From contig VCJN01003596.1 of NCBI GenBank assembly GCA_006384855.1, forward strand, positions 124,001 through 188,000: a stretch of 64,000 bases of DNA, given 5' to 3'. Source of the stretch: Tetraselmis striata. Lineage: Eukaryota > Chlorophyta > Chlorodendrophyceae > Chlorodendrales > Chlorodendraceae. The notes beneath the pieces are model-generated. The model was not told where the DNA came from. It saw nothing but the letters and a program-made list of their open reading frames with translations, and did no database searches. Positions 1 through 24,930 of the stretch are shown here, piece by piece; the stretch's first letter is position 1, and every line of letters starts with the position of its first letter. Position numbers and translations under genes: made by a program.

Positions 1-2
1 TG

Positions 3-89
3 AGACGGTGGCTGGACTGGTACTCCTGCGTCGAGCATGGCAGGGGCGTCGCCGGCATCAGCCGCCGGGGCTCCAGCTTGCACTCCGCC
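3..89 (+). pseudogene. Tyrosinase-like gene, 5' fragment before the transposon insertion
   Basis: Reading from base 3, these 29 codons end in LHSA. If the transposon and one copy of the duplicated CCGCC are disregarded, the frame runs without a shift into base 6550 and gives LHSAAHQLVGG. That matches the stretch just before the second copper site of tyrosinases, usually LHN-x-VH followed by VGG. Tyrosinases are type-3 copper enzymes that oxidise phenols. The fragment is open at the window edge, so the CuA half is not visible. The match across the junction is strong evidence that this was one exon. Confidence 0.75.
85..89. repeat. Target-site duplication CCGCC, left copy
   Basis: CCGCC lies directly left of the TGTTATGTG end of the inserted element. 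The same five bases lie directly right of its CATAACA end at 6545-6549. The tyrosinase frame is restored when one copy is counted. Confidence 0.85.
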
Positions 90-635
90 TGTTATGTGCT
101 CTACACTGCTGTACTTTGTACTGCGGCAGCCGACGAAGGAGCTAAGAACTGGCGACTGAGGCGGACGAGAACGAGTACAAGCCAAGCGAAGTACGAGTAT
201 GCGGCTGAGCATTGCGAGTGCGAGTACAAGTGAAGGCGAAGTACTGATACGAGGACGACGAGGCGACAGTACGAGCGACTATAAGGCGACTACGACCTTT
301 CCGATTGTCCTTTTTTTCGGTGATGATTTCCGATATCACCTTCTGCTGCTAGCTCATGTAAGTAGGCGACTAGTAGTGCAGGACAGTATTACGAGTACCC
401 ACGTGGGGTACGAGTAACCTGTATGTACCTGCGTACCAGCAGCGGCGATTGTCGTACGCTATGGTGTCACCTGCTAGAGGATGATGACACCTAGCGTTAG
501 ATAGGGCGCTGCCTTAGGAGTGTCTTAGCAGTAGGTACCAGAACCTACTGGAACCATCTAGAACGCTATAGAGTTTTTCCATAATAACGTTAAGTACTAG
601 CGTCGCCCGGTGGGGCTCAGAATATTGGGTCGCAG
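90..635 (+). repeat. Left terminal inverted repeat of the 6.46-kb element
   Basis: This stretch is the reverse complement of 4675-4755 joined to 5822-6544, apart from scattered substitutions and the later insertions in either arm. It includes short degenerate repeats of the type GCGAGTACGAG. No gene is seen in it. Confidence 0.85.
284..372. repeat. 71-bp insertion in the left arm, flanked by a 9-bp direct repeat
   Basis: AGGCGACTA occurs at 284-292 and again at 364-372. The right arm (about 6345-6365, reverse complement) has the sequence only once and lacks the intervening bases. The insert is too short to classify and has no clear inverted ends. A 9-bp duplication is typical of Mutator-like elements, but other origins are possible. 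Confidence 0.55.
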
Positions 636-639
636 CATC

Positions 640-2930
640 GCAGCGAGTAGTCGCGACAATGTTACTGACGAGTCGCTACCCGCCGCCGCCTCGCTACTCG
701 TCGAGGCTTTTGACCAGCGTTAGAATTTCAGCAGCACACAGACTGCTCTCACACCCGCATCGCGCCGCCGACCCTGCAGCACGAGGGCACCATGGCAGCA
801 GACCCGTCGAAGCGGGGGCCGCGGTACTGCGCATGCGGGCACCCTAAGTGTGGTGAGCGGCGGCCATAGGTGGTCGAGATTGGACCCAGCAGAACATTTG
901 AAAGTCGTCGTCAACAAGCTGCCCTCGTGCGTGTCAAGCCGATGACCGTGCGCTAGTGCTCAGCATCCCATTCGAGTACCGATTCCACACTTCGTCCGAC
1001 CTGGACACAGACAAGGTGCCGTCGCAAGGCGATGGGAAGAAGTTGAAGCCCTTCGCTGCGCTGATCCCGTTTGGCACCATTTTTAAGGACAAGCCCCCGC
1101 TGACAAGAGTGCAGCCCGCTAGTGCAGTTTCCAGTGGGTCCACCTCAGGGACAGCGAACAATAAAAACCTGAATCCTGTGGCGAGCGCAGCTACCGCAAG
1201 CGCCACCACCATGCTTCGACCTGCTCTGCCAAGAAACGCCTTGCCCCCCCCCCCCCCCCCTGAATGGTCTAGGCGCAATCGCTGGACAGCTACGGCGTAG
1301 GGCAGCACCACACTATATTACAGCGATCAAATGCCGGCCGGCAGAATCTTCCCATGCTTCCGCCGGGGCCAGTCCATATCGTTACTCTGCCCACTCTTGA
1401 GAGAGATGTGCAGGCGGCCTCCACGGGAGCTACGAAGGCATGGCACCAGGAATGAAAGTGTAGCCTACGCCTACTTGCCGTGCGCTCCCTCCGACTTCTT
1501 TCTCTTAAATATACGGGAATATGCTTTCACTTTTAATATACTGTAAATATATCAATATCACGATCGTGTCGGGCAGCGTTGCCCCCCCCCCCCCCCCCCC
1601 CCCCTCCCAATTCTCCCCAACCCCCATGTTGCTGCACCCATGCATGCTGCCACAGCAGGCGCAATGGGGTCACAGGATGTGTCCATGGAGGTATTACAAA
1701 CTCCTAGCCGCCGAGCACCGCCGACCAGCCTGGCGCCTTCACTGCCCTGCCCGCCAAAGCTGCCCTGTCTGGCGCCCTCCTTGGGCTGCGCCTCAACAGG
1801 GTGCACTGCCACATTATGCTGCCTTATGCCGGACAGGGCTGCCGTCAGGAACTACCCCCCCCCCCCCCCCCCCCCCCACCACACACACACCTAACCCCCA
1901 GCAGCAGCGAACCTGCTGCGCGCCCTCCGCCGTACCGCACACCCATGACCTGCAGCACAGCCACTACCTCTCAGCGGTGGGCAGCACGTCCCAGCGGTGC
2001 GCACCTGCCGCTCGCCGCCCGCCCGCTGCGCCGCCCACCCTCCCGGCGCCACCTGCAGCACACCCACTACCCCTCAGCGGTGAGCGGTAGGGCGCAGCCG
2101 CGCGCACCTGCTGCTCGCCGCTGCGCCGCCCACCCTCCCGGCGCCACCTGCAGCACAGCCACTACCCCTCGGCGGTGAGCGGTAGGGCGCAGCCGCGCGC
2201 ACCTGCTGCTCGCCGCTCGCCCGCCCACCCTCCCGGCGCCACCTGCAGCACAGCCACTACCTCTCAGCAGTGGGCAGCACGGCCCAGCCGCGCGCACTTG
2301 CTGCTCGCCCCATGCCCGGCCGCCTGCTGCAACACAGCCACTACTACCGCTCAGCGGTGGGCACCCGGCCTAGACGCGCGCAGCTGCTGCTCGCCGGGAG
2401 AAGGCGTCGTCCAGGATGATGTGTGCGCTCTCTGCCACCTCAACGATGTATCCAGGGAGTAAGCACATCGTTTGCACTTTCAATACGAGGAATACTTATG
2501 TGGGACATGTAAGAAAATCTCAGATACACACACAAAGTGGAATGGCGGTACCTCTCCCAATGACTGTATATCATCTGCCTCTAGAGAAAGGGAGTAAGTG
2601 CGGCAATGTCATGCCTGCCAGTGATTCACTCAGACGTGGCGGGCAACGTTGTGGAATCCCCCTGCTCAGAAGGGAAGTGCCAGCAATGCCCAGACACCCG
2701 CTCCGGGAGATGCTTGTGGAGGCTGCGCCCGGAGGGGTCACGCAACATTATGCTCTCTCCTCTATGTTTCGTCTCTGCCTCTAGTGCCATCCTGGTCTTC
2801 ATAACGTTGACAATCTCATCCCAAGTACTGCCACTTTGCATAATCATTGAAGCCGTGTAGACAATTCTAACAGGATTGGGCACAGCATGCACTAGGGCCT
2901 TACCTGCACAGTGGGCCGGGTAGAACGATC
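640..2930. other. Interior of the 6.46-kb element without a recognisable gene
   Basis: Apart from the tandem repeat and three poly-C runs (near 1247-1260, 1581-1604 and 1855-1877), this stretch has only short overlapping reading frames with no family motif I recognise. It may hold decayed coding sequence of the element. Confidence 0.4.
1952..2395. repeat. Tandem repeat, about 95-105 bp period, about 4.5 copies
   Basis: The motif CAGCACAGCCACTACC recurs near 1952, 2055, 2151, 2247 and 2332 (some copies with one or two changes). Each is followed by a CAGCGGTGRGC-type stretch, CGCGCACCTGCTGCTCGCC and GCCCACCCTCCCGGCGCC. The copies are GC-rich and keep several frames open, which explains the long but meaningless reading frames here. 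Confidence 0.75.
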
Positions 2931-3963
2931 TCAGGGCCAGGAGGGCAAGCTCGCTCCATCAATCATCTCCTCCGTTAAGTGAGCCGGCATATGCACAGAA
3001 GCTGCTACACTACCATCAGGAAGCGCGCTCAGCTCGCCAGTAGGTGTCATCAGACCGAGCGCCCTACGCTCAGCATCATCAGCGGAGATTGCGCTTCCGA
3101 GGAACGGCCAGCAAATGCACGCGTCACTACAGTCCGCTCCACTCTTGGGCTCAACCCGCAGAGTTCTGGGGTTATACGCTAGTGCGCGCTCAAACACAGT
3201 AAGCGCATCCCTCGCTCTTCGGGCCCAATTCTCAACATCCAGCCCTTCTGCCGCAAACAAAGCAACCATATTTCAGGGATGCCAAACCCGGCCGCTAAGC
3301 AGGCACCACGGGCAAGGACAGCTTTGCGGCAACTTGCATGACGTCGATTGCTTCCTCTGATAGCCAGCAATGCGGTCGGCCAGAAAGCCGAGGTGGGCAG
3401 TAGGTCCGAAAAAGAAAGACCCGCTCAATCCCATGGACAATGAAGTCAGCATCCACCGTTGCGACGGCCCAGACGACGCCTGCCTTGGCGATCAAAGTCA
3501 GCTGCGAGTCTGCCGTATGGCGCAAGGAAGTTTGTGATCCCGTGCTGCCGCAGAAGCCGGACCACGGCGGATACTGCCGACCAACCCAACGAGATTCGCA
3601 GCAATCGAAGGTGTTACATCGTCACTGTGCATTACCTTGGCAAGTTCCATCGCGCGACGCCTCTGCCGCTCCTGGTCAGTGCAACGATTGGCCGGGGTTG
3701 GTGCGCCATCGAATACAAACCCCAGCTCCACTCCCTGGCCGAGGACCTACTGCGCCTGCTGTAAAAAAAAACTCGCGCGCCACTGGCTCATAATTCGTGT
3801 GGAAGACAATATGTTCAGCCCAGTGGTAGGCAAAGTGATGAAGCCACACCTGCCCATCCACGCCGATGCACTTGCCGTCAGCTACATTGTACATGTTCGT
3901 GGTTCGTAGCAGGGCGTCCAAATTTTGAAGCAGTTTGGCCAGCCCCCATCTCCCACTCGGCAT
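2931..3963 (-). pseudogene. XPG/FEN1-like structure-specific nuclease of the transposon, broken
   Basis: Read on the minus strand from 3963, the translation starts with GLAKLLQNLD and continues to CIGVDGQVWLHHFAYHWAEH, the XPG N-region with its first catalytic Asp (compare VDTYCWLH in EXO1). Further on come GFVFDGAPTPANR, the second Asp motif, and AVATVDADFIVHG, the D-x-D of the XPG-I region. The last part (3269-2931) has ARDALTVFERALAYNP and LGSAISADDAERRALGL, resembling the C-terminal half of XPG proteins encoded by transposons. These parts lie in at least three frames, so the gene is frameshifted; short introns could explain some shifts. The motif order and the retained acidic residues make the family call firm. 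The role in transposition is inferred from its place inside an inverted-repeat element. Confidence 0.7.
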
Positions 3964-4420
3964 AGAATATCACACTATAGGGTGACCAAGTGCGTTGACT
4001 GGCGGGGCAGGACCACGGTCGTTAAGGTTGCTACAGGCGCTTACCTTACAGGTGACGCAGCAACACGAAACGTCTCGCAGTCCCGCTCCTCTGCGACAGC
4101 ACCGGCAGGGCAGGGGTAAGTGTGTGCCGGGTGGTGTTTCGGGGTGTTGACCGGACGGGATCGCGGCCGTTAAATTTCTGACAACACTTACTACCTGGCA
4201 GGTGATGAGGCAGCACAAGGCCACTGCCCCCAGCGCCTACGCGTCGCCCGCACGTCGCAACGCGCGCTTCCGTCCACCCGCACTCGCCCTCGCCGCCACG
4301 GCACACGCACGGTGCGGGTAATAGAGAATATCATGGGCGTTGACCCGGCGAGATCGCGGCAGGTACAGGGAGAGCCGGCACTTACCGGGCAAGTCAGGCA
4401 GCGGATTGAGGACGGAGCGG
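3958..4420. repeat. Degenerate internal repeats
   Basis: Similar segments recur near 3990-4010, 4145-4165 and 4330-4365, with cores like GTTGACYGGRCGGGATCGCGG. Each is followed within ~60 bp by an ACTTAC or CTTACC stretch and a CAGGTGA- or CAAGTCAGGCAGC-type stretch. The spacing is uneven and similarity is low, so this is only a probable old tandem duplication. Confidence 0.35.
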
Positions 4421-4755
4421 CTCAGCGACCGGCCGCTCGAGCATCGCTGACGCGCCTCGCTCGTCAGGCTGAGCGTCTCGCTCACGTCGCCAACGTGCCT
4501 GACGTCATAAAATCGCAGTCGAAGGGTTGGGGTTTGCCCTTGGAGTGCTTTTTGGGGCAGGATCGTGGGAGATTTTGGCACGACAGGCACTGAAGGTGGG
4601 CGAGGCGCGGCGAGTTCTGTGAGCGGAACGTCGCGCTGCGCAGCTTTTGAACTGCTTGCCGCCCCCTCGCAACCCTGCGACCCAATAATCCAGTCCCCAC
4701 GGGCCAGGGTGCCAAAAAGCTAGTACTTAAACGTTATTGTGGAAAAACTCTATAG

Positions 4756-5815
4756 CATTTGACATAGCAATAGTAGATAAAATTATATCACTGTGCTGCG
4801 GACAGACGAAGGTGCTAGCAATCTGTCTGTAGTTAGTTAATATGTGTTACTAAAATAGCGACGGGCCGCGGATTAGGACCTCACACGTCGATTTTAGTAT
4901 TAGTCTAGTAGTTACACGCAGCATAAGTGGCGGGAATTGGAATAAAAATGCAGCGCACGGAATGACGGAAACCAACGACTATAAATAGGCCGGCAAAACC
5001 GCCGCCGGGCCAGTCACCCAGGTTACCGGCTTCCGGTACTGTAAGAATCCCTTTTCCCAAATCTCTGCTCATTATTCCTGCCCGTGTGGAATAACGAGCG
5101 ATCCAATGGGCCCTCGACTCAGCTCCTGCTTTAGGACTATCTATGGCTAGACGGCTATTCGGCCTAAGTCCTGATGGGGCTGTAACATCTGGTTTCGGAG
5201 CGGTGACCGGAGCACATGGTTCCAGATTCCACAAGAGAAGCGGCATAGCGACGAGAGCGAGAAGCGAGATAGGGACAGAAGAAGACTTCAGATGTCAAGG
5301 ATCCTGTGGCGGGGACGCCCACCGAGGAAGCGCACCGGCTTTGATAGATGGAGTCAAGTTCGACGTGGTGAGAACGATGTAGCGACGATGAGGAGGATGC
5401 GACAACGAGCGAGCGAAATTATGAACTAGCGAAGGGACGAAGATTGCGAGTACCAAGGAGCAGCCGAACGTTCGATCCGAGACGCGTACCAACGTTGCAA
5501 GCTGCTAAGCCATGAGGGCGGAGCAACGTGCGACTCGCGACCCTAGCCGCAGTTCCAATGACGCGAGTTGGCGATGACGCGACATCGACCAAAACCGACA
5601 TGTATCAGCCGTTATCGGTACAGTAGCGACTACTGGTAACGAGCTGTTATAGTGAACGAGAAGAACCGATAAAAAGAATCGACGTGTGCGGTCCTAATCC
5701 GCGGCCCGTCGCTATTTTAGTAACACACAATAACTTACTACAGACAGGTTGCTAGCACCTTCGTCTGTCCGCAGCAAAGTGATATAATTTTTATCTACTA
5801 TTGCTACAGCAAATG
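4756..5815. mobile_element. 1.06-kb MITE-like element with ~140-bp inverted repeats, nested in the right arm
   Basis: CTATAG occurs at 4750-4755 and 5816-5821. The corresponding place in the left arm (near 567-572) has a single CTATAG and no insert. The insert starts CATTTGACATAGC and ends with the near-complement, and its arms (4756-4895 and 5676-5815) pair almost throughout. The interior (4896-5675) has no recognisable protein. CTATAG is palindromic, so the true duplication may be the inner TATA or TA. The element is non-autonomous and its superfamily is unknown. Confidence 0.8.
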
Positions 5816-5966
5816 CTATAGCGTTCTAGATGGTTCCAGTAGGTTCTAGTACCTACTGCTAAGACATAAGACACTCCTATGGCAGCGCCCTATCTAACGC
5901 TAGGTGTCATCATCCTCTAGCAGGTGACACCATAGCGTACGACAATGGCCGCTGCTGGTACGCAGG

Positions 5967-6287
5967 TGTAAGGATATGTACCACACAAATCCCCATGTGG
6001 GTACCCAGTGCCTGGTGCGTTTTGCGCGGTATCCTTACAGTTGGTGCTTCTACGCACGCATCGGATCCGGGTTCGATCCCGCGGAGAAACATATAATATG
6101 ATATGATATCCCGCAATGTTGGACGACCCGGCCAATGCGGATCGCCACCGAATCCAAGCCGAAACGTTGCTGGAGGAGGTCCTCCATCCTATGGGGGGGG
6201 GGGGGGGGGGGGGGTGTAAGGATATGTAACACACAAATCCCCATGTGGGTACCCAGTACTTGGTGCGTTTTGCGCGGTATCCTTACA
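5967..6287 (+). mobile_element. 321-bp miniature LTR element (TRIM/SMART type), fossil, nested in the right arm
   Basis: Two direct repeats of 73 bp (5967-6039 and 6215-6287), each beginning TGTAAGGATA and ending TATCCTTACA, enclose about 175 bp. GCAGG flanks the whole on both sides (5962-5966 and 6288-6292), and the left arm of the host transposon shows a single uninterrupted GCAGG. TG/CA ends, a 5-bp duplication, terminal direct repeats and a purine run (poly-G, 6193-6214) just before the second repeat are the layout of a terminal-repeat retrotransposon in miniature. The inside has no coding capacity, as usual for such elements. It contains a tRNA-like box GGGTTCGATCCCG near 6069-6081. The two repeats differ at only a few positions, which suggests a fairly recent insertion. 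Confidence 0.75.
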
Positions 6288-6544
6288 GCAGGTACATACA
6301 GGTTACTCGTACCCCATGTGGGTACTCGTAATACTGTCCTGCACTACTAGTCGCCTTATAGTCGCTCGTACTGTCGCCTCGTCGTCCTCGTATCCGTACT
6401 TCGCCTTCACTTGTACTCGCACTCGCAATGCTCATACTCGTACTTCTCTTGGCTTGTACTCGTTCTCGTCCGCCTCAGTCGCCAGTTCTTCGCTCCTTCG
6501 TCGGCTCCCGCAGTACAAAGTAAAGCAGTGTAGAGTACATAACA

Positions 6545-7240
6545 CCGCCGCGCATCAGCTTGTCGGGGGGACCTCCGGCACGTCGAGCGGGGATTTACAT
6601 GATCCCGACACATCCCCCAACGACCCGATGTTCATGTTCCACCACGCCAACGTCGACCGCAGCAGTCTGATGCGCTTCACAATACTATGCTGGCCAACGC
6701 GGACAAGGCCGGCTACTGCTGGGGCTACACGGTGTCCAATGCCTCTGCACTGGGCGCGCAAGCGAGCCAGGGGAGTACTATGGGCTCAACCTCTACGACG
6801 AGCAAGGGCCACAACATCTGGGGCTCCACTACCTCCATGCTGGGGCTGGACAACGGGCCGGCGGCCGGTGCAAGGCAACCTGACCAACGCCGATATCGTT
6901 TGCATGCTGGCGCCCGCCGCAACCTCACCGTACACTGTGACGACACCGTTGTCAGGCAGCAGGTCGTGCAAACAAATGCACCCGCAGTCCCGGGGCAGCC
7001 GCAGACTGTCACCGGCCACATCTACTGCGACAACAAGTTCGCATTCTACTTTGACAACGGCGAGCTCATCGCGTAGGACCCCATGAGTTCACGCCGCATA
7101 ATGCCTTTATTTGAGGCCTCGCTCGAGTGGAATGGCATCAGCCCCAAGACCTATGCCATCCGCTGCAGTGACTTGCGACAGATAACTAGCGGCTCTGAGG
7201 TGACTTTTGCTTGCACTTTCTGCGCTTTCTCCCTCTCCGC
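6545..7240 (+). pseudogene. Tyrosinase-like gene, 3' part with the second copper site
   Basis: From 6550 the frame reads AHQLVGGTSG, then DPDTSPNDPMFMFHHANVDR, the CuB signature of tyrosinases (NDPxFxxHHANVDR) with both adjacent histidines. Downstream similarity moves between frames: WGYTVSNASALG, GLNLYDEQG, MLGLDNGPAA, NLTNADIVCMLAPAA, CDNKFAFYFDNGELIA and finally GISPKTYAIRCSDL. The last pieces look like a C-terminal domain after the tyrosinase core. The copy therefore has at least two frameshifts besides the transposon, plus a TAG after GELIA, and is a pseudogene. The left piece is at 3-89. An unusual intron arrangement is less likely, because no good GT-AG pairs sit at the frame changes. 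Confidence 0.75.
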
Positions 7241-7244
7241 CTGC

Positions 7245-8590
7245 CCCGGCACTTCCATGCAATGCTTCACGGCTGGCCATGCACCTTGCACGAGACACTA
7301 CCCTTTCCAATTCAATATAACATGCTCATAAATCCACAGTTAAGCCTTACAGTATTTTGCCCTCCTTTTCTATTAGAGCAGAGGATGCTTATATATTAGA
7401 GCAGAGTTTCATATATGTAGGGTCTGATACTGGGGAGGTTTATAACAATGCTACGTTTTCATCATACACTTAGGCACATCAAATATGATGCTCAATAAAA
7501 GAAGATACTATTCATTTATCACATATCTAATCCACATTATTCAACAGTGTATGGGTAATCATTTTTTTGATTAACTCGCCTCATAATTTTACTAATTTTC
7601 GAATCCAAAAACCAACATAAGGTAGGCATATACCTCAGTATTCCATTTTGTGAATTAACTGCAATGTGTGCGCAGCAAGACAGCATGGTTTCGGAGCACA
7701 CAAGCAACTGCTCCGAAACCAATGTGCTGTTTCAAGTCGGGGGGGGGGGGGGGGGGGGACTTCTATGAAAAGCGTCAATTCGGATTTTGGCCAGCACAAT
7801 ATCATGATATCGCTGTGAATGTTCAGTTCTCTGCTCTGCGCCTAATAATGCAAGCTAGATATATAGAGGTCGTCGTCAGGTGCAGACAACGGCACCACTT
7901 GAGATCCATATGCCAAATAAATATGTCCCAATATAATATAATGAAAAAATACTTTATATGTCAGTGCAAGCACCTCCGCGCACACCTGATGACGATGTAG
8001 TCCAATAACCACCCATCACACTAATACGTACAACTTCTCATCGGCCGATGATGAGTCATGAGACTGTGGATGCATTGCAGTGGGATGCCGTGTATCTCCT
8101 ATGCTTGGCATGTATTTGAGTATGGCTGCTCCAATGCTGAGGCCGTGCATCAAGTATCAACTCATCCCTTGAATTGTCTGTGTGCAGCCTTGGAGCGAGC
8201 TTCGTATGGGAGCATGCATATCGGCATTATGGTGACGGAAGGATGTCGTTTTGGAGCAAATGAGTGATACATGTGAAGCAATTGATTCGAAACCAGTTGT
8301 TTTATTGGAGGAGGGTGCTTGGCAGCTCGGCCATTTGATTGCTGGGAAATATCTTAAATACCGAGATGATTACCGGCAAACAAACCTCTGGGGCGAAGCT
8401 ATGAGGCGTGGTACATGATAGCTGCGCAGCTCGTCCGCTACTTTTTGCTCCCGGCCGCCTGCAGCTCCTGGCAAAACGGCTTGTGAATGGGCCATTACTT
8501 CCTGCGGCAAAGCCGGAAACAGAGAGCACGCATTTGTTATAGGGCTAAGCATCCAAGAGCGCACATATCGGCCGGCACAGATCAAAGGTC
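7245..8590. other. No gene recognised
   Basis: This stretch contains AT-rich patches, a poly-G run at about 7739-7759, and only short reading frames without recognisable motifs on either strand. Confidence 0.4.
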
Positions 8591-12822: not shown

Positions 12823-15542
12823 TTGAGATTGGTTTTGCCAGTCATGAGCGAACGGAGAGAGCGGTGGATTGACGGAGAAGGGGTAGCGCCAGGTCATGAA
12901 GGAGGCACCGGGAAGGCCACCGCTGCGGAGTCCTGTTGGACTTGGAAGTGGCGGAGGGGGGCGATGTGGCCAAAGAAAAACCATGCGCCAGGTGAAGGAA
13001 GAACGTTGGGGTCGATGTAGTCCAGAACGACGTCAGAGTTAGTGGCCCAGCCGCCTTGGTAGCGAATGTGGGACAATGGAACTCCGATGGCGTTGGCGGC
13101 AGACGCTGCTCCCTTGCGAAGGCCGTGCGAGGTTTAGGAAGTGCCGGCGGGAGGGGCAGCACCGACAAGACGGATGGTTGCAGACATCCAGTCCGACATT
13201 GTAGCGGCAGTCCAAGGTTTTGACTGCTCGTTCGGGGTGACCGCCCAGAAGTTTGTTTCAGCCAAGGCAACAGTAACCAGGGGGACAGACTGTATTGTGT
13301 CGATGAAGTGGTGCATGAGACGTGCAACTCGGGGGTGCTCTGCCACCGGAAGGAGAAGTACGCGCAGGTCTTCGTGTCCCCGTCGGCCAGCGCGGCCTTT
13401 CTCGCGGTACACCTGCACGGTAATGTTGTAATCGTCGACATGCACATCCCGCACTCGGCAGGAGACGCCAGTAAGTCCTCTGGCAAAGAACATGAAGTTG
13501 ACAACCGAGGCCACGAGGGCTCGGAAGTCGTGTTGGTACTCTAGGGTGGGAGCAGACACAATCAGCTCGGCCGTTGTGACGAAGCGGTAAGCTACATCAG
13601 CATGCAGAGGAACTCGCAAAGGGGTTGCTTCCAGACGGCGCTGCCGCAGCATCAGCCCACGCCTTGCCGAAGTGAGGTGTAGGCTGTCCTTGGCGATTGG
13701 GTCGAGGTTGTGCAGCTCGAAGAACGTGTTGATTGCAGACAGGTAGGGTTGCAGTGACTTAGCTCCAATGTGCCCTCGCTCACCAATCCAGGCAACGTAC
13801 CGGACGACAGTAGCAGTGGTCGCCTCCAGCGGGCTGATGTTCTCGGCGTCGTGGCAGAACTCCGCGAACTGAGACAGTCTGCTGGCGTAGCTCTTGAGTG
13901 TCTGAGCGGTGAGGGAGCTGGAGAGCAGGTCGAGTGTCCGTTGTCCTAGCTCGTCTGAGCCGAAAGCATCCTGCAGTCGAGATCGCGTTGAAGCAGCCTA
14001 GGGAGCGACAGCTTCGGGCTCGTCAATTACGTAAGTGCGTCGTTTTACCGACAGAGTTCCAGAGGTGCGACTACAATTTGCAACGTACTCGGCAGCAGCG
14101 GTTAGGTTCCCGCCGGTTGGCCGGTAGTTGCTGGACGGGTTTGCAGTAGCACCAATACGGGTTTGCGGGGCTAGGTTCAGGTAGGAGGGCCACACTGCGC
14201 GCCCTTCGCGCTCGTAGCGCCTGTCACGCGCGTAACGTACACGCGCGAAGCTCGGTCGTTGCAAACCAGTTGTGACACGCAGTGTAACAACCGACGGACG
14301 CAGTGATGGAATGGTACGGGAGGCGGTTGGTTGAGCCGCCATGTGCAGGTGTGCGGATGGTTGAGCCGCACTCAGCTGTAGCTGCAAGAAGCGCCGCACC
14401 GAGGAAGGTCTGAATGAAGTCTGTAAGGTAGGGGGGTAAGGTCCGGACACATGGCGCTCATCCCGCCGTTGAGCTGCAAGGGTGCGCTTTGCGGCGGTCA
14501 CCGAAAGGTGGCCTCGCAAAGCTCCAGCAGCTCCGGCGAAAGGCGCCCCACACCGTCACTCGTGCTCACCTTCGCGGCCACGCCCGCGCCCACCGCCAGT
14601 CCTCGTGCACGTCCGCGACCTGCAGCTGCTGCCGCCACCCGTAGCGGTTGCTTTGGCGCTGCTGGCCACAGTCGCCTCGAAGACGCGACGCTCGTAGTCC
14701 CTCATGAGGTCCCCAAAAATCGCGGAACCCAGATGCTCAGAAGCAGGCTGAAAGTGCTGAGCTCGCAGCACGTCCAGAACACCTTGGTCACCGTGCACAC
14801 GCTTGACCTCATTAAGCCTCCGTAGGAAGGCCAAACGAAAGCGAAACGCCTTGTCGATGGCTTCGGCGTGGTTCCGAGCTCTCGCGAGGTAGGGGGTGAA
14901 GTCCTTATTTGCAGCAGGGACGTAAGGCAGCAGCTCGTCAAGAGCCACGAAAAGTGCGGCCATGTGGGCGCCGAAACACGACATCCATAGATACTCCTCC
15001 TGGGCCGGCAGACGCCGATCATCCTGCTTGAGGTACTCGTTCGTTAGGTCGGACGGTGCTCATGGGGAAGAGTCCAGGCACTCGGCTGACCGGTCGAACG
15101 GCCTCGTAACCAGACTCTGCTCTGCAGTAGTTATGGCACCACGAGGTAGTCATCCTCGTCACTCACGGATTTTGCTCCGACACGGCCGCTCTGGGCTAGC
15201 TCTAGCAAGTCGGGGCGCTCTGCGGCTCCCCCGCTGCCTGTCGGCTGTCCCGCGATGCGCTGCCCGGAACCGGAACCATGTGCTCCTTCTCCATCAACAA
15301 CGCGCTCACGAGCCGTCAATTGGGCCATCGCTGTAGCAAGCTCTCGCAGTAATGTAGATTGGGCCTTCACGTCTGCGTGTAGCGACTCGAGCGTCGGCTC
15401 AACGACGGGTTCTTCTCCATCTGGCATGGTAACGCACGGGCGTACGGATGAGAATATCACACACGGGTGGTGAGCCGGGTGTGGTCTTGAACAACCTGGG
15501 ATGACCTTGGTCGCAACAGGTTACGAGACAGTTTTAGCATCG

Positions 15543-19275: not shown

Positions 19276-22200
19276 ATGGCGACTGACATGAGCAAGATAA
19301 TGATTACTGATGTACCATGGTACGAGACTCCTGATGCTCAACTGACTGAGTCTCAGCGAAAGTCAGCTCAAGCTCAGCCTAAGCAGAATGGTGAAGATGT
19401 TCTTAAGCTAGACGTATGGCTTACTGGACTGCCGGAGCAGCTTGGTACCGTGGGACTGAAGTCGACGACTACTGCCGGACTTGCATATGCATTGCAAACT
19501 CTGAGTGGAAACTTTCAACGTTGGTGGCAGGGATTCGACTTAAAGTCGTCTTCGCTTCGCCCGACTAACGTTGATGAGTTTGTCAAGGCAGTTAGAGAAT
19601 CATCATTAATGCATGATATAGTTCATGATGCATGCATTGAGTTTGATGGCATCAAACAGGTGTCGGCTGGCCCTCATGACTCTCCAATGGATTATCGAGA
19701 GTTTGTGCAGGCCTTCAATGACATCCTGGCAAGGACAAGGCTAACCTTCCCTGATGAGATCATAGTCCTGAAGTTTGCATCTGCACTGAGTCACACTAAA
19801 CTTAAGGAGATGGCTCATAAGTTTGTGACTGAACAGAAGCGTGCAGGACATGCATTGACCCTCAATGAGCTACAACAATATGCAACGGCAATGGTTGGTA
19901 GTAACAAGCCACTGGGTAATGCGGCTAAGCCAATAGTAAATGGACATCCTGCTGGTAATAGCAATGGTGGACAGGACTCCAAGAAGAGACCCAAGGTCAT
20001 CAACATGAATAAGCGTAATCATGGAGATGATGCTTCCCCAGGCGCAAGTAATGGACGCCGCAACACCAATGCCAAACGACAGAAGTCTGGCGACAAGAAG
20101 ATGAAGAGTAAGACCTCTATGGCACCTGACAGAAAGATTATAGATTATCTTAACCATGTCAAGCTGCATGAGCCAGAGAAGTATGCTAAGCACAGGGCTG
20201 CCAAAACATGCTTTAAATGTGGTGAGGCTCACCTTCTGAGAGACTGCCCTAAGATGAAATAGGGGTGCCCGTATTCTACTGATGACAACTCAGTGGATAG
20301 GGATGTAAATGATGTTTGTGTTGCATCATGCTGTCCAGTAACTGTCGAGTCGCATGATTGCGAAGTTACTGCTGCCGATATGTCATTGGCACCTGAGGTA
20401 TCTGCATTATTGTCTAATGCACGTCTGGATGACGATATACCAATGACGAGTACATATTTGAGTGACGATGTCGTAATCTCTGACTGTAGTAACGACTATG
20501 TTGAGTCGCCTACTGATGAGTGTACACGAGTCCTGTACGACTTTGCCAGTAGCCCATGTAACGGGTGCTCGGAAAGTTTCGACTCATCGTCGCGTAAAGG
20601 CTCTAAGGCGTCGTATGCCTAGAAAGACTGCAGTCAGTGCCGAGTGGCGACTGGTCGATAGAGTCTTCGATCCCTTACATGATGTGTTCCAGCTTACGCT
20701 GGAGGGGTGTGCGGATAATGAGGGTCTGAATACCCATCGAAACTTGCCGTTCTGTTCAGAACAAAATTCGATATTATCGCGCGACTTGTCAAATGAACGT
20801 GTGTTCATACACCTTCCATGGCATATGACTGAGTCTATTGCGAGGCATTTTGAGCAATGCCGTAATAGAGCTAAAGAACATACTGTAGGAGTGTTTGTAT
20901 TGCCTGCATTTGATAAATTCAGTGCTTTGACAAAGCATTGGAAACTATTGCAGCAATACCCGGCAAAGACACCTTTGTTCACCAGGTGGTCTGATAAAAA
21001 TGCCACGGTCCAGGAAAATGTAAGACCGCCAAAGTATGGGGTTAACATTTGGTTAGTTGATGCTAACTGTGCTTTTCCTGATGACTTTGTACCTAAAACT
21101 GTCACAAGTCCAAATGTGAGTTTTTAACGTGGACTCTGCAAAAGTTGCAGATTCTAGCGTTGGTATTGGTGAACGTGCATCTGAGTTTATAAATGAGTGT
21201 GATGCTGTCAATGTGACTGATCCATCATTTTGGAGTAAGCAAAGGCAAAGTTTGCCTCAGATTGCTTCTTTGACTCGTTGGGATGACCCCAGGCCATTGT
21301 TGAAAGTTAATGTGACTATTAACGATGACGCCGTTGTGGATGCACTGGTTGATAATGCGGCATCTTTAGATTTTAAATCTGAGGACTTTGTGCGCAGAAA
21401 CAACTTGCAGATACAAAAGTTCAAAGCCAGAACACCTGTCCGTTTGGCTAATGGTCAACGTGTCTCATGTTGCCATACAACTGTTGTGTCTCTGTCTGTT
21501 GGAGGACATGTATTTGAGAATCGAGTATTTTATATACTGCGTGAGCTCAAAGTCTCCGACATTGTATTGGGCTTAACATGGCTTGATGAAGCGCAAGTTA
21601 CCATTAAGTATGGTACGGAACGTATCATGACTCTAATGGATGGAACCCATGTACCTGTTGTACTAGTGGGTCGTACTCCTGCATGTAGCATGATTACTTC
21701 CACTAGGGTACAAAAGTTGATGCGCAAAACTGCTCGTGCGTCTAAGCATAATTCTTTGGCTGAATTCTATGTCGTTGAAATGTCGGTTATAAAGGATGAT
21801 CCTGACCTGCATTTAGACAATGCTATGACACCAGAGCAAAAGGATGCTATTCGTCATTTGTTGTATGACGAGTTTCCTGAAATTTTGCGTCCAGTCAACA
21901 GGCCGCATGTTCATCGGCCATGGGATCACATGATTGAGTTAACTGGCAGGATAAAACGCCAAAGACTTAATCGTTTGTCTCCCGCTGAACGTGCTGAATT
22001 GGATCGCCAACTCAAAGATGCGATTGCCGCTGGACTTGTTCGTCCTAGTCAATCTGAGTTTGGTTCGCCTAGTCTTTTTGTTAAGAAGGCAGATGGATCC
22101 CTTCGGTTGTGTGTCGATTTTCGTGGGCTGAACGAGGTCACTCGAAAGGATATGTATCCTTTGCCGCGAATTGATGAAACGTTGGATTCTCTCCGCAATG

Positions 22201-24930
22201 CCCGTTGCTATACCCATCTGGATTTAGCATCAGGTTATTGGCAGGTTGCCATTGCAGAGGAGGACATCCACAAGACAGCGTTTCAGACACCTGATGGTCT
22301 ATGGGAGTGGATTGCAATGCCATTTGGTTTGTGCAATGCCCCAGCCACTTTCCAGCGCATGATGAATGACATCTTGAGACCATTTTTGCGTGACTTTGTG
22401 GTGGTGTATCTGGATGATATATACATATATTCAGATAATTATGATGACCACATAAAGCACCTTCGTTTAGTTTTTGAGAAACTTAATGAATATAATCTGA
22501 GGTTGCAATTAAAGAAATGTTTCTTTGGCATGCAATCTATGGATTATTTGGGGTATACCGTCGCTGATGGTAAGTTGTCTGTTTCAGAGGCCAAATTCGG
22601 AGGCCACTTAAGTGGCTGCAGTTAGGGATTGGCCTGTCCCTAAAACTCAGAGTGAAGTCAGAAGTTTTGTACAATTCTGCAATTTCTACTCTAAGTTTAT
22701 TCATCATTTCAGTGATTTAACTGCACCATTTACTGACTTATTGCGTAAGTCTAAGCCAGTTCATGTTAACTGGTCACCGGCGTGTCAGGAAGCCTTTGAG
22801 ACCCTTCGTCTGCGACTGATTTCCGCTCCGTGTCTTTCCATTCCTTCCATGGGGGCGGATGCGACGTTCACCGTAGCGACAGATGCGTCCAACGCAGGGC
22901 TTGCTGCAGTGCTACTGCAGGACCAAGGAGGAGGTCCTCAACCAGTGAGTTACTGGGCGCGAAAGCTGAATGCAGCTGAGCGTGGTAATACCTACAGTGC
23001 TTATGATTTGGAAGCTTTGGCTGTCTGTGAATCAATTAAGCACTGGCGTTGTTACCTTTAAGTGCTGCCGATTCCTTGTTGTCTCAGATCATGACACCCT
23101 GCGTCATCTGCTCAGGCAACCGGCGTAAAGGTTGAACCGGCGACAAGTGCGCTATGTACGCGGCTTGCAGCCGTTTGTTGGGTCCATATCTCTTGCATAC
23201 CGAAAGGGCAAGTGGAATGAAGCCGATCCGTTGTCGCGTAGACCGGATTTTAAGCCGATTGGTTTCGGTGGCTTATATTGGACCGGGGATGTGCCGGACG
23301 CGGCTGAATCACTCGTGAGTGAACATCGCCCATGTACTGCGGTATTGTCGGTTGTAAGTGCGTCGTCACTTAGCCTCGATGACAATATTCTCCGCCTTAT
23401 TAAGGCTGGATATGCAGAGGATGCGTTCTACTCCTTATGGGGGGGGGGGGGTGGAAGCAGTCCGGTCATGTGGTAGAGCACGATGGTTATTTTTGGAGAC
23501 ATGGACGTCTTTGCATACCAACCAATCGTGACATCATCAATAAGATATTGTATGAGCTACATGATTCTGTTGGTCACCGTGCTTATGCAAGCACCTTGGC
23601 ACGTGCCTTGGACCGTTTTTGGTGGACACGCATACGACATGACGTGAAAACCTATTGTGAACAATGTTCGGTGTGCCGGCGTGTTCGTGCACGTCCGCAG
23701 CCACCTGCACCAACACAGCCCTTACTAGTACCGCCACGTCCATGGCATACGGTTGGTTTGGATTTTATAACCGAGTTACCTGAGAGTAATGGTTAAAATG
23801 CTATGTTGGTTGTGTGTTGCCATCTGTCCCGGCAAGCACATTTTATTCCAACCACAGTCAACGTGACTGGTGGACAGGCAGCTGAATTATGTCTGAAGGA
23901 AGTATTCAGGCTGCATGGAATACCTCGTGTGATCGTCTCTGATAGAGATCCACGGTTCCTGTCTGCATTCTGGCAAACTCTGTGGCGGAGACTTGGCACT
24001 AAATTGAACATGTCTAGTGGCCAACATCCTGAAACAGATGGTTTGACTGAACGCATTAATGCCATAGTCACTGAGTTGGCTCGTGCGTTTTGTTGTTTCG
24101 ATGGTTCAAACTGGGTAGACCAGTTACCATTGATGGAATTTGCGTAAAATTCCAACAAAGCACTTGGCATTGAGCATGCACCATTTGAGATTATGTATGG
24201 TTTCAATTCCGAAACGCCTCCGGATGTATTGTTTGGTATGAGACCAACAATAGCATTCTCCCGTGATGCTCAGCAACGTATCCAAGATATGAAGGAGATT
24301 CATGAGTTGGTTCGGTCAGTGTTGGCTGTCCATAAAGATGAATTGACTGTTCGTCCTAGTGTTAGGCAACAGCGCAATCCTCCTATCTTCCATGTTGGAG
24401 ATAGAGTATCTCTGGGTACCCGTCTGCATAAGGTCAAAGGTCAGCCTTGCAAAAAGCTGATGGCAAAGCAGCTTGGCCCATTTTCTATTGTAGAGAAAAT
24501 TGGCGGTCATAGTTATCGACTGAAATTACATGCTGGTGTTAAGTTGCACCCAATATTTCATGTTAATAATTTAAGACCCTGTCCCACTGCGCCGTTGCGC
24601 CCGCGTGTACCTCTTGTTGTTGGTACCGGTGACGACTCTGATGATGAGTATGAGATTGACAAGATTACCAGCGTTAAGATCGGTTCCATGCCCGGTTTAC
24701 GTGGTACTCAGTTGCAATTCTTGTTCACTTTGCGGATGAGTCTATTGCCCCTGTTTGGCATCGTTTGTTTGATGTTAAAAGGACAATAGCATTGCAGGAT
24801 TTTATGGCTACTCCCAAATGGTTGGACTTTGTAAAGTCACCTGAATTTGTGGAGCATATGCATAAATACCCGGCATGTGTGCCGACTGCAAATTAAACTG
24901 CCTGTGGAATGCTATTTCACACTGTTGTCA

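Follow-up and report, generated by a model that had tools for sequence, protein, structure and literature searches.

Two U3 ends in an LTR-retrotransposon insertion within a tyrosinase-like sequence of Tetraselmis striata

The 64,000-nucleotide stretch of Tetraselmis striata DNA analyzed here (the window; contig VCJN01003596.1, positions 124,001 to 188,000 of assembly GCA_006384855.1) contains, at 90-6544, an element that interrupts a tyrosinase-like sequence and carries inverted ends within a 5-bp target-site duplication (TSD). What kind of element is it, and how did it come by two matching ends? Judged from its sequence, the outer part of this insertion is a member of a non-autonomous long terminal repeat (LTR) retrotransposon family and not a DNA transposon. 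We consider it likely that plus-strand complementary DNAs (cDNAs) of this family, with strong-stop DNA as a frequent partner, were linked tail to tail and that the product entered the genome by way of its two U3 ends.

Insertion site and make-up of the element

The motif CCGCC is present at 85-89 and again at 6545-6549, bracketing an element that begins TGTTATGTG and finishes ACATAACA. An exact empty site was identified on C1791:976-3008 (minus strand), where the two flanks are joined directly through one CCGCC, with no element and no footprint. The perfect 5-bp duplication and the single-base borders proposed in the initial annotation, which had also called for a search for such an empty site, are therefore fixed to the base by the TSD and the C1791 copy. 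The left host flank (1-84, plus strand) continues upstream into C2891:122599-124084 and aligns to C1791 at 93.7% over 1.5 kb, while the right flank (6550-7076, plus strand) aligns at 96% over 536 bp, C1791 being the single other copy found in a genome search with this flank. In the next 4 kb upstream on C1791, the alignment to C2891 persists at 89-91%, tandem repeat included, so that C1791 represents either a divergent haplotype or a segmental duplicate. As a real empty site exists there, the host sequence is older than the insertion, as had been proposed, and the window copy offers a clean case for dating.

The Pfam Tyrosinase domain (PF00264) matched the right flank at 6550-6660 (E 6e-9), and the sequence HHANVDR is the CuB motif of this flank. 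A genome search with the same domain returned at least three loci, with both domain halves at C2683. When the element and one CCGCC are disregarded, the window reads continuously through ...LHSA-AHQLVGG...HHANVDR, in agreement with the initial annotation. The empty-site copy on C1791 carries 11 additional bases just upstream of the site and is out of frame there, and in both copies the frame shifts soon after HHANVDR, through either a frameshift or an intron. The host sequence is thus tyrosinase-like, but may not be a functional gene.

The view of the insertion as one 6.46-kb transposon had to be given up. About 4.6 kb consists of later insertions with duplications of their own, and the outer element measures about 1.87 kb once these are removed. 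In a self-comparison, 90-292 matched 6544-6348 in inverted orientation (94%), and the match continued piecewise to 4746-4893 / 5825-5677, with foreign blocks splitting the inverted repeat of the outer element into pieces. The inverted ends described earlier are real but not short; each of them is the U3 end of one and the same LTR from an LTR-retrotransposon family. The window copy consists of one LTR and an inverted LTR piece, and both of its termini are U3 ends instead of the one U3 and one U5 end of a canonical LTR retrotransposon.

In the coordinates of the family unit (unit H), the left arm (90-571, plus strand) is the U3-proximal part of the 5' LTR (unit 1-396), split by a 73-bp insert; 90-292 and 364-571 correspond to unit H 1-197 and 189-396 (95%). 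The remainder of the 5' LTR lies at 4750-5187 (plus strand) and ends CTGTAACA, within a segment, 4746-5668, that corresponds to unit H 387-1311 (92%). Two bases past the LTR end, at 5190-5201 (plus strand), is the word TGGTTTCGGAGC, which resembles a primer-binding site (PBS) and occupies the same position in the L010 unit. A non-coding internal region (5202-5668, plus strand) matches unit H and is truncated at unit H 1311. It is followed by the junction filler ATAAAAAG (5669-5676) and the right arm (5677-6544, minus strand). This arm is part of an LTR in inverted orientation (unit 533-1) and finishes in the U3 terminus CATAACA; within it, 5677-5967 and 6288-6544 correspond to unit H 533-252 and 257-1.

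The retrotransposon family and its copies with two U3 ends

Termini of the U3 type were found 607 times in the genome (at most 2 mismatches), against none for the reversed control. The canonical layout comprises an 827-bp LTR, CT, TGGTTTCGGAGC, an internal region of about 1.8 kb, AACAGGGTGAGAG and a second LTR, and the LTRs run TGTTATG...TGTAACA in direct orientation. The purine tract ACAGGGTGAGAG followed by the terminus TGTTATGT, as expected of a polypurine tract (PPT), occurred at 123 places (100 of them listed), with none for the reversed control. A 5-bp TSD was present in all six canonical copies checked (C514, C2590, C790, C1, C1816 and C474), among which C474 has one more LTR, in tandem, while the 3' LTR of C1 contains an insertion. 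The 5' and 3' LTRs were 98.7-100% identical in the four pairs computed, and identity between four different canonical elements was 94.9-96.6% (six comparisons).

Mapping the L010 unit onto family loci revealed direct-order units, tandem arrays and ends with an inverted piece. The L055 locus (C76:12000-21900) is a head-to-tail array, of which the stretch covered takes in three complete units and portions of two others. Additionally, one unit in each of L017, L043, L044 and L045 lacks positions 728-823, which would directly precede the PBS-like site; L017, L044 and L045 also hold an LTR containing this segment, and ordinary reverse transcription does not explain the loss. No Pfam match above the cut-off, gag-pol included, was obtained in four open reading frames (ORFs), three from L010 and one from L016, so the family appears to be non-autonomous and would be mobilised in trans. 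Likewise, no transposase was found among the ORFs scanned for the outer element (window 4905-5246 and the four ORFs of relatives).

Copies with two U3 ends were observed at 17 loci, and an exact 5-bp TSD touches both U3 ends in every one of them. These loci comprise 14 convergent pairs, L018, L024 and the window copy; the C238 locus was read through its duplicate L017. L011 and L013, incomplete in the DNA retrieved, were left out, as was L023, which shares its junction, flanks and TSD with L017 and was counted once with it. Among the first 100 of the 607 termini listed, all exact matches, 77 were external; these gave 14 convergent pairs, and no divergent pair occurred. The U3-U3 kind therefore accounts for 14 of about 63 presumed insertions (about a fifth) among the termini listed, with the reservation that some of the 49 unpaired ends may be internal LTR starts overlooked because 100 of the 123 purine-tract places were listed. 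Genome-wide, U5 ends (382) were fewer than U3 ends (607), the direction expected, although the two patterns differ in length and strictness and the counts can be compared only loosely.

The two arms within a copy were 99.5-100% alike in 9 of the 13 loci computed, above the 94.9-96.6% found between canonical elements. Lower values were obtained for L045 (97.9%), L042 (97.5%), L052 (96.3%), L043 (94.9%) and the window copy (92.5%); for L047, L048 and L049, the comparison covered just the first 140-190 bases of the arms. The value of the window copy suggests either an older insertion or the use of two different templates.

The window junction is unique in the genome, and all 15 junctions printed (those of L042 and L049 are not among them) differ from each other. 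The positions at which arms end fall in part into two groups. In L010, L024, L045 and L046, arms end at 841, 841, 841 and 840, the last or last-but-one base of the 12-nt PBS-like word (LTR + 2 + 12 nt); the incomplete loci L011 and L013 additionally have an arm end at 841 and 840, respectively. A second group, at 826-832 in L017, L044, L045 and L052, lies at or near the U5 end. Where the printed junction differed from BLAST, the former was preferred (for example, 832 and not 838 for the right arm of L045, and 826 and not 829 for that of L044). Eight of 34 arm ends fall within unit 824-841, an interval of 18 positions (p < 1e-6 under a crude uniform null, for an interval picked after the data had been seen and with arm-end coordinates partly read by hand). 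Furthermore, the shorter arm does not extend beyond 841 in any of the 17 full loci.

According to a review of Ty3 reverse transcription (PMC5371799), the first plus-strand DNA extends 12 nt into the primer tRNA and the second as far as the U5 end, and dead-end strong-stop DNA builds up in particles. The two groups of arm ends agree closely with the plus-strand stops of the Ty1/Ty3 PPT-recycling model as presented there (PMC5371799).

Origin of the U3-U3 copies

The termini, TSDs, empty site and junctions are observed; the joining of plus strands would have taken the following course. Plus-strand cDNAs would be joined by their 3' sides before integration, by template jumping or end joining and probably by template jumping of reverse transcriptase, yielding a linear DNA with U3 at both termini. 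Because the joined strands often end at the expected plus-strand stops, displaced plus-strand strong-stop DNA would be a frequent partner. Integrase supplied in trans would then use the two U3 ends, which in the window would give the insertion into the tyrosinase-like sequence and the duplication of CCGCC. In the window copy, the two joined strands would have stopped at unit 1311 and at 533, with a filler of 8 bases between them. Afterwards, a terminal inverted repeat (TIR) element, a mini-LTR element and the 73-bp element inserted into the outer element.

Three candidates were rejected. A single 6.46-kb DNA transposon is at odds with the nested inserts and the LTR-family relatives, a plain LTR retrotransposon with the inverted structure as its LTR conflicts with the difference between its two ends, and spread of the palindrome itself as one unit does not fit the single window junction and the differences among the 15 junctions printed. 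Long inverted ends and exact TSDs would also suit a cut-and-paste DNA transposon family with long TIRs, whose non-autonomous members differ in their interiors. However, the same ends start direct-orientation LTRs behind the conserved purine tract at the 123 places, canonical copies end TGTAACA and not CATAACA, and no two of the junctions printed agree, which makes such a family highly improbable. It is hardly more plausible that the element went in as a canonical insertion and that recombination between LTRs later inverted or replaced the right one. LTRs in inverted order are able to recombine, and tandem unit arrays such as L055 exist, but the TSD touches the second U3 end in all 17 loci, and later rearrangement is disfavoured because it would place the TSD beside U5 or lose it.

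Two further explanations retain a retrotransposon product with two U3 ends and carry somewhat more weight. Host end joining, with trimming and filler, could have linked two finished linear cDNAs through U5 into a dimer that then integrated via its U3 ends; the product would be the same, its junction being made by host repair and not by reverse transcriptase. Filler bases, ragged junctions and L013, which resembles a dimer of two long molecules, fit this course of events, which we nevertheless regard as rather unlikely: a finished cDNA ends at U5, so the 11-12 nt of the PBS-like word in L010, L024, L045, L046, L011 and L013 would be unexpected, as would one arm of at most 841 in all full loci. 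It is less probable still that the peak at 840-841 stems from a GCTCCGAAACC motif prone to breakage or recombination and not from tRNA copying, the elements otherwise remaining U3-U3 retrotransposon products. The genomic abundance of the degenerate pattern ending GCTCCGAAA (188 matches; reversed control, 22) and the recurrence of parts of the word at the L024 junction speak for a motif, but it leaves the second group at 826-832 unexplained, and the ends stop at the last or last-but-one base of the 12-mer.

Several observations weigh against the tail-to-tail joining of plus strands. The arms of the window copy, L043 and L052 resemble each other no more closely than separate elements do. In L018, L042 and L043, stretches of 1.3-5.1 kb without a match to the unit separate or interrupt the arms, which makes the original junctions there uncertain. 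The window arms, stopping at 1311 and 533 around 8 filler bases, end at neither expected stop; the window copy thus exhibits the U3-U3 form and not the strong-stop signature, although its junction may possibly have been altered by a later internal deletion. In L013, two strands that both extend past the LTR are joined, so strong-stop DNA is not always a partner. No autonomous partner with reverse transcriptase and integrase turned up, no dedicated search having been made. Finally, no convincing primer tRNA gene fitting the PBS-like 12-mer was found by two patterns (for the second, among 100 of 188 places listed); a tRNA-family search scored 63 of 7,947 candidates, of which none were read. Given the unmatched primer and the over-represented GCTCCGAAA pattern, the link between arm ends and tRNA copying is one that we infer. 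Arrays of the pattern ending GCTCCGAAA, with a period of about 2.1 kb, were also observed on C16, C933 and C1080, and a hairpin of the PBS-like word TGGTTTCGGAGC is located at window 7686-7721.

The joining of plus strands can be extended, tentatively and with somewhat less than even confidence, to the family as a whole: strong-stop DNA would regularly be joined tail to tail with other plus strands and the product accepted by integrase, about a fifth of family insertions would be fossils of plus-strand stops, and part of the family would mimic a TIR or foldback transposon. The double-left-ended copies that recur in the genome may be records of stray reverse-transcription products. If this is true, what an automatic pipeline labels "TIR transposon with 5-bp TSD" can in reality be an LTR retrotransposon, and a pair of identical U3 ends is frequently accepted by the family's integrase. 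As a natural archive of plus-strand stops, the junctions would make the Ty1/Ty3 PPT-recycling model testable from genomes of other lineages.

Nested elements and comparison with known systems

The largest nested insert (572-4749) is a 4,178-bp element with TIRs of about 30 bp (AGTTTTTCC...GGAAAAACT) and the TSD CTATAG (566-571 / 4750-4755), the one case from which the 6-bp TSD of this family is known. A full-length relative is present at C2162:3877-8076 (97%), and relatives of about 5.9 kb each at C2011:5067-11009, C1259:2008-7945 and C2683:173055-178983 may be fuller versions. Remnants of an XPG/FEN1-like nuclease lie at 2931-3963 (minus strand), with XPG_I at 3295-3525 (E 2.9e-4) and a weak XPG_N at 3676-3963 (E 0.077), both below the curated Pfam cut-offs, and a match to PDB exonuclease 1 (E 0.002); no Pfam match was obtained for 2931-3269. 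An Academ-type affiliation of the element was considered but drew no support from the literature search, and the element is not assigned to a superfamily here. A tandem array at 1899-2396 within it comprises units of about 95-105 bp that are 71-83% alike.

The right arm is interrupted at 5967-6287 (plus strand) by a 321-bp mini-LTR retrotransposon with the TSD GCAGG (5962-5966 / 6288-6292). Its two LTRs are 73 bp long, with 3 differences between them; together with a poly-G tract, the TSD and a PBS-like site (TGG...) at 6042, they suggest a terminal-repeat retrotransposon in miniature (TRIM). The unclassified 73-bp insert (291-363), with the TSD AGGCGAC (284-290 / 364-370), is lacking at the same point in L010. 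Its relatives at L016 1865-1933 and L019 5206-5274 lie close outside the ends of two other retrotransposon copies; the insert is possibly a short mobile repeat, or its site a preferred target. Elsewhere in the window, frames from other mobile elements encode an aspartic protease with a reverse transcriptase (RVT_1; 21120-22622) and a phage-integrase SAM-like domain (13137-13997); no direct or inverted repeats of at least 80 bp were found at 17-32 kb around the RVT_1 frame.

Non-autonomous LTR retrotransposons, strong-stop DNA and nested insertions are already known. No description of integrated inverted-LTR or two-U3-ended copies was found among the titles and abstract beginnings listed from the open literature, which mostly excludes subscription journals; inverted LTRs in connection with a retrotransposon came up there in one paper, on Dictyostelium. 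That the frequent integrated U3-U3 form was not met in these sources is no proof of its being undescribed.

With non-autonomous LTR retrotransposons of the large retrotransposon derivative (LARD) and TRIM kind, the family shares TG...CA LTRs, a PBS-like site, a purine tract, a 5-bp TSD and the lack of a Pfam domain above the cut-off in the ORFs scanned, but about a fifth of the sampled insertions here have U3 at both termini and contain part of an LTR in inverted orientation. Foldback elements and miniature inverted-repeat transposable elements are palindromic, with a variable middle and a TSD. The U3-U3 copies resemble them in all three respects, whereas they have LTR termini, no two of their printed junctions are the same and the parent retrotransposon is present. 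DIRS elements use a tyrosine recombinase, have inverted terminal repeats on a retroelement and are not known to form TSDs. The inverted terminal repeats are shared, while all 17 loci here carry 5-bp TSDs. A further parallel is strong-stop DNA and PPT recycling in Ty1/Ty3 (PMC5371799), where the predicted stops correspond to the two groups of arm ends; those ends are intermediates or dead-end products in particles, whereas similar ends are here fixed in integrated copies.

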